A stretch of DNA of 64,000 nucleotides from Microbulbifer sp. Q7. GTDB lineage: Bacteria; Pseudomonadota; Gammaproteobacteria; Pseudomonadales; Cellvibrionaceae. How positions within the stretch are numbered: position 1 is the stretch's first letter; every line of letters starts with the position of its first letter. The stretch spans positions 1,272,501-1,336,500 of the forward strand of contig NZ_LROY01000002.1 of assembly GCF_001639145.1 (NCBI RefSeq), given 5' to 3'. Positions 35,516 to 40,626 of this stretch are shown here, in pieces. The position numbers and the translations under genes are program-made. Under the pieces are notes generated by a model that ran no database searches, was not told where the DNA came from, and saw only the letters and a list, made by a program, of their open reading frames with translations.

Positions 35516-35771
35516 CTTGGCTCCTCCCTACCAAAGATCCTTGGGCACCACCATGCCCAGTTACCCACTCACAGGTCAAGACCTGCGCCCAGCCGCGCCA
35601 GCCGTTGCTCCGAATATCCCCACATGCCATCAAAACGGGCATCCGTAATGGCACTGACAGAGCGCCAATAAGCGGTATGGACAAGCTTCTCGGGCAGTTT
35701 GATACTTATTCAACCGATGGCAAAGGTGCAAAAATGTGTGCACCAATGATACGGCCTAACAGAGAAGGCAG

Positions 35772-36263
35772 ATGACTTACGCACCCTCTTACCAACCCTC
35801 CAAAAGCCCCATCCTGAAACTCTGGAAAAGCTTGGGCGGCAATAGCTTTGGCCGCTGGCTGGTGAGCAAGATCGTCTGCTTCAATGCCCCCTACTTCAGC
35901 TCGATCAAACCGCGCTTCACCCAGATAAAGCCGGGCCTGGTTGAGGTAACACTGAAGAAACGCCGCGCAGTGCAAAACCACATTAAAACCGTACACGCCA
36001 TCGCCATGTGTAACGCCGCAGAGCTGGCGGGAGGCGTGTGCCTGGACGTATCCCTGAACGGAAATTTCCGCTGGATTCCGGTGGGTATGACCGTGCAATA
36101 CCTGAAGATGGCCAAGACCGACCTGCGCGCCGTGTGCAAGGTAGACGACTTTCATTGGGATTCTGCGCAGGATGTGGTGATGCCCGTCAGTGTGTTTGAT
36201 ACCAATGGCGAGGAGGTCTTCCATGCGGACATCACCATGCGGATTTCACCTAAGAAAAAATAG
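35772..36263 (+). CDS. DUF4442 hotdog-fold protein
   Basis: 163 residues. The layout matches DUF4442, a thioesterase-like hotdog family: a helical N-terminus (ILKLWKSLGGNSFGRWLVSKIVCFNAPYF), then KKRRAVQNHIKTVHAIAMCNAAELAGG, then strands VGMTVQYLKMAKTDLRAVC. The central helix with NHIKTVHA is where hotdog thioesterases keep their active site. The substrate is unknown, though acyl-CoA is likely. It is the last normal-composition gene before the A/T-rich island. Confidence 0.85.
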   Translation: MTYAPSYQPSKSPILKLWKSLGGNSFGRWLVSKIVCFNAPYFSSIKPRFTQIKPGLVEVTLKKRRAVQNHIKTVHAIAMCNAAELAGGVCLDVSLNGNFRWIPVGMTVQYLKMAKTDLRAVCKVDDFHWDSAQDVVMPVSVFDTNGEEVFHADITMRISPKKK

Positions 36264-36878
36264 GTTTTCTCGACTGGACGTGGCGGGTGTCCCGCCGGCT
36301 CGCACATAGTGAGGATGCAGGAAGCCTGCTCTGCACTCATTAGATTACAAGCCTCGCAAAGCAATACTTCGCTCTGCCCCCAATTATTTCTGTCAGAGAC
36401 CAAATTACCTCCCGGAGGCTACTGAAGGCCAATAGGGAAAAGCTCGCGCCTCTCGGTATACAGGAAACATTCAGGACGGATTTTTTCCTCGCGAACAAAT
36501 CACGCCCGCACCCCTTGTGGGGCGGTGCAATCTATGAGGCTTGAAACGTTTGACAAACTAGTCAAGATGTTCTCCGCGATTCACACATGAATTCTAGCGA
36601 CCACGCAGAACTACGCACCGAGTAATTAGTGCAACCAATTCACAGGGAACGAGATTTAGCTTTTACACCAAAACCTCACGCTGCTCGTCATTCAATCTCT
36701 CCCTTTTACTCCGTAAATTCTATTGAATGGTGCCACCTCCATATATCCTACAACTATTTTTGGGGACCAATAAAACTTCAATTAATTGAATTATTTACAA
36801 GCGGAATTGACAGAAAGCCGAAAATTACCAGCCACCTTAAATCCAGATAGAACCCCACTTAAAACAACAAAATTATAT
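36264..36878. other. A/T-rich non-coding left flank of the island
   Basis: 615 bases without a convincing gene. It starts with a 6-3-6 hairpin (GGCGGG TGT CCCGCC, 36282-36296), becomes A/T-rich towards the right, and holds the 14-base perfect palindrome TTCAATTAATTGAA (36777-36790). No direct copy of the tRNA-Pro 3' end was found. It may be the remnant of an insertion. Confidence 0.5.
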
Positions 36879-39434
36879 TCACCGCACATATTTCATTTTT
36901 AATCCATGCTTATACAAACCACCAGCACGCCACTCTCCGGGGTAACCTGTTCGCTCTTCGAAAACACCAATTTTTTTCATACTCTCAAGAGCAGTTTTTA
37001 TTTTTGTTAAATCCACATCCAAACTACCCTGCAGGTTGCGAGCCATTTCATTTCTCTTGAATGGTGTGGCACAACCCTCAAAAAGCGAGACAAATTGATC
37101 CACAAGCTCGCGATTACGACTAACATTTTCATCCAGATACAAAACGTTGTACAACTCTTGAGTAATCTCCTGCATAAATGAAAGCGACGCCAATGAGTGT
37201 GCTTCCAGCATATTCAGGTGGTTCACTTTCCCATCAACGATTGCTTCTCTTTTACTTTTCTTTGATAGAGACTCCAGCTCAAACAGAAAGCGTTCAAAAA
37301 GCCGAGGATAAAATGATGCACCACCATCTTTATCACCAGAAGTGTCCGAAAAATAGGTTTTGAAAAATGTGTAAGTGAGCAAATTGTTCCTGCGTATTTT
37401 TTCCGGAAAAAAACCATGCAGATACAGCTTGTACTCACTTTCCGAAAGAGACCCACTCTTAATATCCGGCAATCTCTTAGCGACCTCTTCAACCTGATCT
37501 CCAAACTCACTCTTAAACCAATCATTCACCAAAATTTTAGCCAAAAGAAAATTAAATATCGCATCTCGATCCCAATATAACTCCACCGTCTTATTGGCGA
37601 TTTGCTGCTCTACATTTTGCACGGACCCAGCCTGAAGATCACTACGCAAGAAAAGTCGAAAATCCACATAATGACTAAATCCCTTATCCGACTGGAGACT
37701 CAACAGAAACATAAAGAGAGACTCGACGAACTCTTTCATATCCTTAGCGGAAACGGCAGTCTCGACGCCATCAATTACAAAAAACCTCTTCTCATCAAGA
37801 GTCTTTAGCTTTTCGGCCACGACTGCTGGCTTGGCTTGCAACAAGCACAACTCCCCCCCCTGAACAACCCAATTGTCCACAGCACTTTCTAGAAAATCTA
37901 TATTCCTAGTGTCGCCAGCCTCAATAGCAATGCTCAACAACGCCCACCAAAATGATTGGTAATCCCCATCAACTGACTCAAGAATTTTATTGAAAATAAT
38001 CGAATTACTTTTAACCCCTCCGGATGGAAAGTCATTTGTTGCCAATAACGGCTCAGCCAAACCGCTTCCGATAAAACGCGCAAACAGCCTTGTTTTACCG
38101 GTGCCTTTCCGCCCGAAAATATATTTAAATGGGCTATCATTCTTAAAGAGATTTCGAATAGATCGAGTCTCAACAAAAAGATCTGCAGCGTTCGCACCAC
38201 TCAAAGAAAAATTTGGATCGCCCAAATTTGAATGCTCTCGCTCAATCGAGCCAGACAACTCCAAAACTTCCCTCAAGTTCGAAATGGCAGACAAATTATC
38301 CCTCGACAAACTATCCAGCGGCGGCATTGCGGATCGCAAATAGGCTCGATCATGAAACCAATTAATCCAAAACGTTTTCAGTACTTCATCAGGTAAAGGC
38401 TCAGAATCAGGCCCCGATAGATTTTCTGATATATCGTTCAACAACCCATCAATTTGCGCTATGTGCTTTTTCTCTATTGCTTGGGATGTCGCTTCAGGAT
38501 CGAGAGAGAATGAGACAAATGCTCCGGGGGTTTCGGGATAAACCGAAAAAAGAGACCGGTACAATGAGTGGCGCTCGTTGGAGAGCCCATCTAACCGAAT
38601 GTTGACCACCACCGAACCTGGCCATTGTTGAATTATTGGTACAGCCGAAAGATTAAAACCGGTACGATGATCAAATAACACCACATCGTACCCCTCCCCC
38701 TCTTTTAGAGCTTCGGCATAGGTTTTCAATTTTTCCACACCATCCATTAGGACGCTATTATCCATTGATGCGCGAAGAGCAAAGGCAGAGAAATCCATGT
38801 CGTATTTCTCTGCATCTGGCCTACAAGCGACCAAGTCAACCACCCCCCCCTGTTTAGAGAAGGGTTCAGCTCGTATTGGTTCAATTTCATCAGACCAGCC
38901 ACATATTCCCATAAATGTCGAGGAAATGGAGCTTACGCTTAACCCCATCATTGCAGGCATTGATGGAGCCTCTAGATCCGCGTCTACAATTAAGACTCTA
39001 TAGCCACTCTCCGAGAGCGACGCAGCTAAAGCACAAAGGACACTAGATCGTGCTTGGCCACCCTTATAGCCATAAAAATGAATTGCTCTCACACCTTCTG
39101 ATCGTGCGATTATGGGAAGCCCGCCTCTCGAGCCTCTATCCAGTAGCGGCAACCAATGAGCAACAGATCCTGTTGATGGAATATAAAAATACTCACTCTC
39201 CCTTTCCGCCTCTGTTACCGGTTTTATCTCTATCGAATTTAAAATACAAAGCCGCTCTATCATTGCGAGTGGAATCTGCAATTTTTTTGCGACCGCCTGC
39301 AGTCGCGCCTCTTCAGGTACAACGCCAAACTCACTCGCTATACAGAATATATATAAGCATGGCTGTAGATATGAAAGCTCTATGAATTCGTAAGCATTTC
39401 GCAATTCTGTAAGCAATTCTTGTGTTGTTATCAT
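36879..39434 (-). CDS. Two-domain ATPase: variant ParA/MinD-like plus second P-loop NTPase
   Basis: 851 residues. Residues 1-100 are a small helical domain. Residues about 117-300 look like a ParA/MinD-type fold: variant P-loop K124-GGQARSS, VLIVDADLEAP (151-157), and DHRTG (255-259) as Walker B. The signature-loop GK is replaced by R, as in proteins called KGGVGR-variant ATPases. Residues about 430-650 hold a canonical P-loop, GRKGTGKT (441-448), with RFFVIDGVET as Walker B. The last 100 residues look like a winged helix. It is A/T-rich, unlike its neighbours, and has two G8 tracts. ATG 39434 is used; a TTG at 39449 overlaps the upstream gene. The function is unknown; a conflict/defence role is inferred. 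Confidence 0.8.
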   Translation of the reverse strand: MITTQELLTELRNAYEFIELSYLQPCLYIFCIASEFGVVPEEARLQAVAKKLQIPLAMIERLCILNSIEIKPVTEAERESEYFYIPSTGSVAHWLPLLDRGSRGGLPIIARSEGVRAIHFYGYKGGQARSSVLCALAASLSESGYRVLIVDADLEAPSMPAMMGLSVSSISSTFMGICGWSDEIEPIRAEPFSKQGGVVDLVACRPDAEKYDMDFSAFALRASMDNSVLMDGVEKLKTYAEALKEGEGYDVVLFDHRTGFNLSAVPIIQQWPGSVVVNIRLDGLSNERHSLYRSLFSVYPETPGAFVSFSLDPEATSQAIEKKHIAQIDGLLNDISENLSGPDSEPLPDEVLKTFWINWFHDRAYLRSAMPPLDSLSRDNLSAISNLREVLELSGSIEREHSNLGDPNFSLSGANAADLFVETRSIRNLFKNDSPFKYIFGRKGTGKTRLFARFIGSGLAEPLLATNDFPSGGVKSNSIIFNKILESVDGDYQSFWWALLSIAIEAGDTRNIDFLESAVDNWVVQGGELCLLQAKPAVVAEKLKTLDEKRFFVIDGVETAVSAKDMKEFVESLFMFLLSLQSDKGFSHYVDFRLFLRSDLQAGSVQNVEQQIANKTVELYWDRDAIFNFLLAKILVNDWFKSEFGDQVEEVAKRLPDIKSGSLSESEYKLYLHGFFPEKIRRNNLLTYTFFKTYFSDTSGDKDGGASFYPRLFERFLFELESLSKKSKREAIVDGKVNHLNMLEAHSLASLSFMQEITQELYNVLYLDENVSRNRELVDQFVSLFEGCATPFKRNEMARNLQGSLDVDLTKIKTALESMKKIGVFEERTGYPGEWRAGGLYKHGLKMKYVR

Positions 39435-39441
39435 ATTGGTA

Positions 39442-39867
39442 TTAAACAACCTTACTTTGGATAAAAGCGTGAACCCTTTTGGTTAACTGGTGGAGCGTTT
39501 TTAAACACTCTTCTGCAGAGTGTTGGTTATCCCAGTCATTTTCATGTCTGAGATAGCGAATGTACGGATAGTTATCAGGGGGCACCATAGTAGGCCCCGC
39601 CCGCCCCTCGCTCCAAAGCGCAGCAAGAGCATTTCTAAGCTGTGAACCTAAAGGCTTAATTGTTGCACCTTTACTCTTGAGTCTCGGAATACTAGCTAAC
39701 CTAAGGAACATACCAGGGACATCGTGGCTGGGCCTCACCCCTCCCCCCTCTCGCCTCAAAATCCCAACTAGTTCAATTTCAATAGCGACCAAATTGCAAT
39801 AAGCCGCAATTAAATTGTTGTTTGAAGCATGACCAGCGAAAGCTGCGGTATTGTACTTAAGTGACAT
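39442..39867 (-). CDS. Small helical protein partnered with the two-domain ATPase
   Basis: 141 residues, mostly helical by eye: NNLIAAYCNLVAIEIELVGIL near the start and HQLTKRVHAFIQ at the end. A proline/aromatic patch (PPDNYPYIRYLRHENDW) lies between. I do not recognise the family. HEPN-like or adaptor folds are possible but unproven. It ends seven bases before the ATG of the large ATPase gene, and its stop falls within the reach of a TTG start of that gene, so the pair is one operon. A TATACT hexamer lies eight bases before its ATG and no ribosome site is seen, which suggests a near-leaderless transcript. Confidence 0.7.
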   Translation of the reverse strand: MSLKYNTAAFAGHASNNNLIAAYCNLVAIEIELVGILRREGGGVRPSHDVPGMFLRLASIPRLKSKGATIKPLGSQLRNALAALWSEGRAGPTMVPPDNYPYIRYLRHENDWDNQHSAEECLKTLHQLTKRVHAFIQSKVV

Positions 39868-39875
39868 TGTTTAAA

Positions 39876-39881
39876 AGTATA
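39876..39881 (-). promoter_or_regulatory. Candidate -10 element for the island operon
   Basis: TATACT on the minus strand sits within an A/T-rich stretch eight bases before the small gene's ATG. No good -35 hexamer was found 17 bases upstream. If used, the mRNA would start at or next to the ATG. Confidence 0.35.
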
Positions 39882-39991
39882 TTATTCTGAATGAGCACTA
39901 GACATAGTAATTGCTCTGATCAACTTGCTCAAACAATAAGAATGAATAGATTAGCGGCGCCAATTGAATTTGTGCAGCAGAAAGGAAGCAC

Positions 39992-40019
39992 AAAAAAGCC
40001 CGCTCAGTGGCGGGCTTTT
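39992..40019 (-). terminator. Intrinsic terminator downstream of tRNA-Pro
   Basis: The stem AAAAGCCCGC/GCGGGCTTTT has a short loop and six T residues on the minus strand. It lies 28 bases after the tRNA 3' end and marks the boundary with the island. Confidence 0.9.
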
Positions 40020-40046
40020 AAGTCGTTGGCTAGGCAACGTAAATAA

Positions 40047-40123
40047 TGGTCGGAGTGGCCGGATTTGAACCGACGACCACCACACCCCCAGTGTGGTGCG
40101 CTACCAGGCTGCGCTACACTCCG
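40047..40123 (-). tRNA. tRNA-Pro (anticodon GGG)
   Basis: 77 bases including an encoded CCA. The acceptor stem is CGGAGTG/CACTCCG, the T loop is TTCGAAT, and the anticodon stem CCACA/TGTGG encloses the loop CTGGGGG. It is transcribed in the pheST-ihfA direction and ends in a terminator before the accessory island. Confidence 0.97.
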
Positions 40124-40260
40124 ATAAGAGCAAATCAAGCCGGGTAAAAACTACGTAAGTGCTTGATTTATAAGGGGCATCGCTTGGCGATGAGGCGCAA
40201 ATCATACCGAAGTACGGAGGGAATGCAAGCCCGTTTTGCGCCTTTTTGACTCAGGTTAGA

Positions 40261-40626
40261 TCAGGCTTCCACTTCCAGCAATTCCAGCACACCTTCCAGC
40301 TCGGCGATCATTTGCGGGATCACCTGTTGCAGCTGTACGGTCTGAACTTTTTCTGAGCTGCCGGTTTCCATCTGCAGGCGTGCGCCGCCGATGGTGTAGC
40401 CTTCTTCGTACAGGAGTGCGCGGATCTGGCGGATGAGGATGACGTCCTGGTGCTGGTAGTAGCGGCGGTTGCCGCGACGCTTCACCGGACTGAGCTGCGG
40501 GAATTCCTGTTCCCAGTAGCGCAGCACATGCGGTTTGACTGCACAAAGCTCACTCACTTCACCAATGGTGAAATAGCGCTTGCCCGGGATTACCGGGAGT
40601 TCGCTGTTATGACTCGCTTCCAGCAT
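40261..40626 (-). CDS. MerR family transcriptional regulator (ihfA-linked)
   Basis: 121 residues. The MerR winged helix is clear: [63 protein letters not shown]. It lacks metal-binding cysteines and has only a short C-terminal helix, so it is not a metal sensor. It overlaps the end of ihfA by 20 bases. This linkage to ihfA is conserved in Pseudomonas relatives. Its target is unknown. Confidence 0.93.

Follow-up and report, generated by a model that had tools for sequence, protein, structure and literature searches.

A two-gene cassette behind tRNA-Pro in Microbulbifer sp. Q7, joining a ParA-like double ATPase to a small, possibly HEPN-like protein, is a probable uncatalogued defence system

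Introduction

Behind a proline tRNA gene of Microbulbifer sp. Q7 lies a cassette of two genes, encoding an ATPase of 851 residues with two P-loop sites and a small protein of 141 residues. The cassette was found in a stretch of 64,000 nucleotides (contig NZ_LROY01000002.1, positions 1,272,501 to 1,336,500; hereafter the window), and it raises the question of what function these two proteins share. A sequence-only reading of the window had proposed that the pair is an uncatalogued defence module. The co-occurrence of the two genes, the variable and defence-bearing site in which they lie and the sporadic distribution of their homologues support this proposal. We consider the pair to be probably an uncatalogued bacterial defence system, because its genes travel together between unrelated bacteria and because its site holds anti-virus systems in sister species.

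Linkage and distribution of the gene pair

Both open reading frames (ORFs) described in the sequence-only reading were recovered, the small one just upstream (Table 1). The small gene is the first in the operon, and the ATG of the ATPase gene comes 7 nucleotides past its stop codon. An alternative TTG start at 39449 would give an ATPase of 856 residues; the alignment of the relatives begins instead at the ATG at 39434. The pair had been described as A/T-rich amid G/C-rich genes, and its G+C content is indeed 42-45% per kilobase, compared with mostly 55-65% in the surroundings.

The small gene was located directly upstream of the ATPase gene in five of five genome loci, one of which is cut by a contig end. 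In the loci of Oryzomonas, Ferrimonas and Paraburkholderia (L002, L003 and L004), a small homologue of 142-146 residues is directly upstream and overlaps, or nearly overlaps, the ATPase gene. In L001 the contig stops inside the small gene, of which roughly the final 33 positions stand where expected (E 0.18 when taken alone). In the window's genome and in each of those of L001-L004 the small-protein profile matched once (E <= 1), and a single full-length ATPase was present; additional short ParA-like matches occur in two of these five pair-bearing genomes. Contigs of equal size join 13 of the 54 small homologues (13 of 31 on contigs of at least 3.2 kb) to the 119 listed ATPases; in a control with shifted sizes the same count averaged 0.44 and never exceeded 3. 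The distances between small proteins were correlated with those between ATPases in 15 pairs (r = 0.75; none of 5000 permutations was as high), and also in the 11 pairs inferred solely from equal contig size (r = 0.67; 1 of 5000 permutations). Among 58 relatives, either gene is present only in the window's own genome, which has both. The two genes form one unit. The sequence-only reading had named a lack of co-occurrence as an outcome that would speak against it, and the comparison of neighbourhoods found the opposite.

The ATPase was found in 1 of 398 genomes of a phylum sample (E <= 1e-40) and in 1 of 369 genomes of a class sample (E <= 1e-50), the window's own genome in each case; these two samples and that of the 58 relatives overlap. 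Neither the 72,556 plasmid records searched nor the phage records contained a match to it. In IMG/VR, 1 of 106 pattern-matching stretches (L006) encodes the ATPase. Downstream of the gene in that stretch come a single small ORF without a match and, after it, genes for portal, head-maturation protease, major head and tape-measure proteins. The ATPase (L006:1-2640) begins at the contig end, so that any small gene upstream would lie beyond the contig. Placed shortly before head genes in a phage contig, this copy is perhaps accessory cargo of a phage. The gene that comes next on the strand in L004 encodes a NACHT ATPase (PF05729, E 7e-10).

The pair is mobile and shared by unrelated bacteria. We rejected the possibility that it is a core gene set of plasmids or phages owing to the lack of matches in the plasmid and phage records, though one IMG/VR contig carries the ATPase. 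A housekeeping function, constant linkage to which would have spoken against a defence module, was also rejected, since the distribution of the homologues is sporadic and the site is variable.

Insertion site behind tRNA-Pro

The region behind the same tRNA-Pro was compared in 34 of 36 relatives of the same genus (L038-L071); G752 and G762 were left out, the match in G762 being at a contig end. Homology with the window ends at the 3' end of the tRNA in 12 loci, including L039, whose contig itself stops there, and at most 66 bases beyond it in 22. Apart from the relic described below, it is found again in L040, L042 and L044 from the far core gene (36262-36277) onwards. The cargo of the intervening site (36263-40047) is variable, and among ORFs of at least 90 residues each protein family was seen in at most 4 of the 34 loci. 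Cargo is common to a few loci, for example type I restriction genes in L046, L054 and L061, and several genes in L059 and L060.

Twenty large-ORF proteins from 18 of these loci, in stretches of up to 9.7 kb, were scanned with PADLOC; they were picked by hand and are not a random sample, and that of L040 is encoded past the far core gene. Nine of the 20 had a match at E <= 1e-10, and some of the other 11 are ordinary genes. The matches are DRT4 (L041, 715 bits), a PDC-S37/Hhe-related protein (L045, 1180 bits), a type I restriction endonuclease (L046, 1413 bits), Ppl (L057, 495 bits), DRT3b (L065, 704 bits) and PDC-S49 (L052, 110 bits), with weaker matches for L063 (about 90 residues) and for L068 (a helicase); that of L051 is a cyclase-like protein, which is present in four genomes and probably chromosomal. 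Among 13 proteins from other parts of the window, the only match was a weak and partial one to a helicase. Absence of any link to a variable locus had been named as a further point that would count against a defence module. The site is highly variable, and it holds known defence systems in several sister species.

The P2-like phage replication gene Phage_GPA was whole or nearly whole in L038, L041 and L056 (E 3.6e-86 for L056, Pfam), and fragments of it were found in L042, L043, L044, L063, L068 and, weakly, L040. The relic in the window matched Phage_GPA over 17 codons with 71% identity (E 0.003-0.010). Judged by this similarity, the relic is a remnant of an earlier element at the tRNA-Pro site. 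Since Phage_GPA recurs there, intact or as a relic, P2-like elements or satellites may be the vehicle, which would repeatedly insert at the site, deposit cargo and decay. No attachment-site repeats pairing the 3' end of the tRNA with the far edge were found in the region 35700-40300. A scan of the site for RNA families returned the tRNA alone, and neither promoter-like nor terminator-like sites were in excess over shuffled sequences.

Table 1. Features of the cassette and of its insertion site (positions in the window)
Feature	Position	Strand	Remarks
Small gene	39442..39867	-	141 residues; helical with beta-hairpin, putative HEPN-like fold; conserved E30, H48, Y100-P101, R104-Y105, D111
ATPase gene	36879..39434	-	851 residues from ATG at 39434; stop codon counted in coordinates
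N-terminal alpha/beta domain	residues 1-112, 39099..39434	-	predicted secondary structure; no family match
ParA/MinD/FleN-type P-loop domain	residues ~113-396, 38247..39098	-	
Deviant Walker A, K124-GGQA-R129-SS	39042..39065	-	signature Lys retained, Arg in place of Walker A Lys
Second P-loop ATPase domain, STAND/Sll1717-like	residues ~418-765, 37140..38183	-	NF047389, AAA_22 and ATPase_2 below cut-off; 2fna
Canonical Walker A, GRKGTGKT	residues 441-448, 38091..38114	-	invariant in 39 aligned rows
C-terminal winged-helix-like segment	residues 771-845, 36900..37124	-	predicted secondary structure only
tRNA-Pro (GGG)	40047..40123	-	near edge of variable site
Terminator-like hairpin behind tRNA	39994..40019	-	pattern match; such sites no more frequent than in shuffles; homology with sister genomes ends near it or at the tRNA 3' end
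Core gene, far edge	35772..36263	+	163 residues; conserved with L040, L042, L044 up to 36262-36277
Relic of P2-like phage replication gene (Phage_GPA)	36279..36345	+	67 nucleotides; 86.6% to L044, 80% to L056

The 851-residue ATPase

Among 8000 scored candidates, 407 homologues of the ATPase were found at E <= 1e-3, and the gene is therefore more than a chance ORF. The 120 homologues listed include P0001, a shortened copy of the window's ATPase without the first P-loop site, which is outside the 119 homologues (P0002-P0120) used below. The alignment (A1) consists of 39 rows: 36 of the 120 listed ATPases, those of L001 and L002, and the window's protein.

The structure of the ATPase was predicted with a predicted local distance difference test score (pLDDT) of 83.6 and a predicted template modelling score of 0.53. 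Its ParA domain scored above the gathering score of the Pfam family profile, and it has the MinD/ParA fold in the model. This generic ParA-type domain is the only one for which the ATPase passed Pfam cut-offs, and no NCBIfam cut-off was passed; residues 1-115 matched no Pfam family at E <= 0.01. K124 and R129 are both invariant in the 39 rows. The catalytic Walker A lysine (KGGxxK) is absent from the first site, with arginine in every row, and the arginine equivalent to R129 is present in 119 of the 119 homologues among the matches listed. The sequence-only reading had stated that arginine replaces the signature lysine of this site. The replacement by arginine, at R129, was borne out; the residue replaced is the Walker A lysine, however, and the signature lysine, which we take to be K124, is kept. 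The DADLEAP and DHRTG motifs ascribed to the protein are both present.

The second site had been called canonical, and its invariant GRKGTGKT motif is exact in 118 of the 119 homologues among the matches listed. For the domain around it, the Pfam families AAA_22 and ATPase_2 gave weak matches below cut-off. The archaeal ATPase SSO1545 (2fna) appeared at Foldseek rank 38 (E 1.1e-4, with no aligned range stated). The structural match list of the model was filled by matches to the ParA domain. A PDB sequence search with residues 418-851 returned two chance matches and nothing more. As for the winged-helix-like end, the order of the predicted elements at 771-837 fits the earlier description. Three homologues (P0109, P0111 and P0116) are 1006-1011 residues long; P0109, the only one of them aligned, has about 150 extra C-terminal residues beyond the winged helix, without a Pfam match.

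The 141-residue protein

The model of the small protein is confident (pLDDT 94), and the predicted fold, helical with a beta-hairpin, agrees with the small helical protein described earlier. With a five-sequence profile 54 homologues were recovered, of which P0144, P0161 and P0172 are omitted from the alignment (A3, 52 rows). E30 is conserved in 51 of the 52 rows, and H48 and R104 in all 52.

The best structural alignments of the model are to HEPN domains, with scores inside the chance range. The usual HEPN motif, Rx4-6H, was found in none of the 52 rows when anchored on R104, and in 21 rows as a bare pattern anywhere; it occurs in 4 of 17 sequences of the PF05168 reference set. The residues of the alternative site of HEPN-T and AbiV, defined in extracts of PMC3710099 as an acidic residue in helix 2, a histidine and an arginine, are present: the acidic residue in helix 2, the histidine in the insert between helices 2 and 3, and the arginine before helix 4. 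E30, H48 and R104 thus appear to stand at helices matching those of HEPN-T and AbiV; the helix match is our reading of the model, and the same residues are no proof of membership.

A HEPN assignment by sequence was rejected. In the Pfam scan of the 52 members no HEPN match (PF05168, PF18728) was found at E <= 1. Alignments by hhalign with 17 PF05168 sequences (E 0.24 and 0.039) and with 3 AbiV sequences (E 0.69) were not significant, a PDB sequence profile search gave chance matches only, a viral fold library gave no significant match, and no family was matched in the Pfam, NCBIfam and PADLOC scans. We retain HEPN purely as a reading of the structure and of the residue pattern.

Proposed function and alternatives

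A role in defence of some kind is, in our judgement, likely. The reading that we prefer, at about even odds, is abortive-type phage defence in which an NTP-gated ATPase has control over a HEPN-like effector. In such a system, the 851-residue protein would be both sensor and switch, with its degenerate ParA/MinD-like domain, its STAND/Sll1717-like ATPase and its winged-helix end. The ATPase would keep the small partner inactive, or assemble with it, until triggered, and infection or foreign DNA would cause its nucleotide-driven rearrangement. The lysine-less ParA domain may be a nucleotide- or DNA-binding sensor, or a dimerisation element. The 141-residue effector would act on RNA, either by cleavage or by binding that blocks translation, through the alternative site E30/H48/R104 instead of the usual motif. 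Upon detection of a phage, translation would be stopped or RNA degraded, and the cell would shut down. It is doubtful that all parts hold together as a new NTP-gated abortive class, in which a lysine-less nucleotide- or DNA-binding ParA sensor, a STAND-type readout and a HEPN-like RNase with the E/H/R site are ferried between species, along with other defence systems, by P2-like elements that use the one tRNA-Pro site.

It is worth noting that the roles within a defence module could be reversed. The ATPase might be the effector, and the small HEPN-like protein a non-catalytic adaptor or a recognition subunit binding nucleic acids or nucleotides. The absence of the canonical RNase motif at R104 would fit such an adaptor, and HEPN domains without this motif are thought, according to extracts of PMC3710099, to bind RNA and not to cleave it. 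The ATPase is also the larger and more conserved protein (mean identity per column 45% in 39 rows, that of the small protein being 38% in 52 rows), and it has an extra N-terminal domain without an assigned fold. A pure adaptor, on the other hand, has no obvious need for residues as nearly or fully invariant as E30, H48 and R104, and the Pfam, NCBIfam and PADLOC scans of the ATPase gave no match to a nuclease, a protease or any further known effector domain. We regard this arrangement as possible but unlikely.

Two further explanations place phage defence in the background. The pair might stabilise mobile elements as a toxin-antitoxin or addiction module, and any phage protection would then be incidental. 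Pairing with a neutralising partner is the classic arrangement of HEPN toxins, as in HEPN/MNT (abstract of PMC7641770). The small gene comes first and overlaps or nearly overlaps the second, and phage-derived remains lie at the site. A partner of 851 residues with two ATPase sites, however, far exceeds known antitoxins in size; plasmid records gave no match; and, as the Phage_GPA relic suggests, the pair persists where the surrounding element has decayed. An addiction module is improbable on this balance. The ParA domain and the winged helix would also suit a non-defence system for DNA partition, element maintenance or transcription control. This explanation is quite improbable, as the Walker A lysine is lost throughout the listed homologues, plasmid occurrence is lacking, and the conserved partner is a small helical protein, with no ParB-like neighbour in the few loci read. 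Defence by the pair remains our preferred interpretation.

Comparison with known systems

The best NCBIfam match of the ATPase is NF047398, the KGGVGR-motif variant AAA ATPase (residues 121-281, E 9.3e-20; 71.8 bits, below the cut-off of 90 bits). The two have in common the change from lysine to arginine in a ParA-like P-loop, the motif of the family being taken from its name, and KGGQAR of the ATPase agrees with KGGxxR. In the present case, however, the domain is joined to another complete ATPase in one protein, and a small helical gene is its partner. NF047389, a P-loop ATPase of the Sll1717 family, matched residues 549-836 with positions 179-422 of 454 (E 2.4e-14; 53.3 bits, below the cut-off of 75 bits). 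In PADLOC, the search of which had been suggested as a check, no model covers either protein well. The best, PDC-M28B, has a similar P-loop and matched a stretch of 49 residues around the first P-loop (E 2.7e-13); only 49 of its 438 positions are covered, and no full-length relationship was seen. A PDC-M28 system would also have its partner gene, and the small protein matched no PADLOC family.

The small protein is similar to HEPN-T (PF05168) and AbiV in the order and kind of its conserved residues, and HEPN structures head its alignment list. It differs from them in an extra beta-hairpin (85-94) and in the lack of a significant sequence match, and its partner is not a nucleotidyltransferase. 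In PrrC, RloC and AbiJ-type proteins a HEPN RNase is the shut-down effector, which is NTP-controlled in PrrC and RloC (compare PMC3710099). These are single proteins with the canonical motif, whereas in the present pair two genes are involved, the ATPase is of another kind and the motif is the alternative one. According to extracts of Kaur et al. (2020, PMC7159879), MinD/ParA-like domains occur in STAND-type conflict systems, where they are linked to actinobacterial peptide-processing and VMAP systems. The present system is a two-gene unit whose named loci are in proteobacteria and a desulfuromonad, and those extracts name no such pair.

No model in Pfam, NCBIfam or PADLOC spans both halves of the ATPase or the pair. 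In the open-access PubMed Central literature, with subscription papers and most preprints outside this scope, the pair is not described among the matches listed, and KGGVGR, Sll1717 and PDC-M28 are unmentioned. The pair resembles STAND- or ParA-variant conflict ATPases and HEPN effectors, in a combination that we did not find reported. If this interpretation is correct, a scattered and rare two-gene defence system was missed by the searched libraries, and one set of arginine-variant ParA domains, together with the Sll1717-like ATPase fused to them, would gain a function. The pair would also be a tractable case for the role of a ParA domain without its catalytic lysine.

Other genes at the tRNA-Pro site

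The tRNA-Pro site would be a ready place to seek more uncatalogued systems. In L043 a STAND-like protein of 772 residues (L043:842-3157; AAA_16/NB-ARC below cut-off), without a PADLOC match at E <= 1e-10, adjoins the tRNA-Pro and is followed by transposase genes. In L051 an HSP90-like ATPase of 604 residues, for which a scan of this protein only gave no PADLOC match, is encoded at the site together with a TPR-like neighbour of 372 residues (L051:3449-6381, minus strand); the two possibly form an uncatalogued system.
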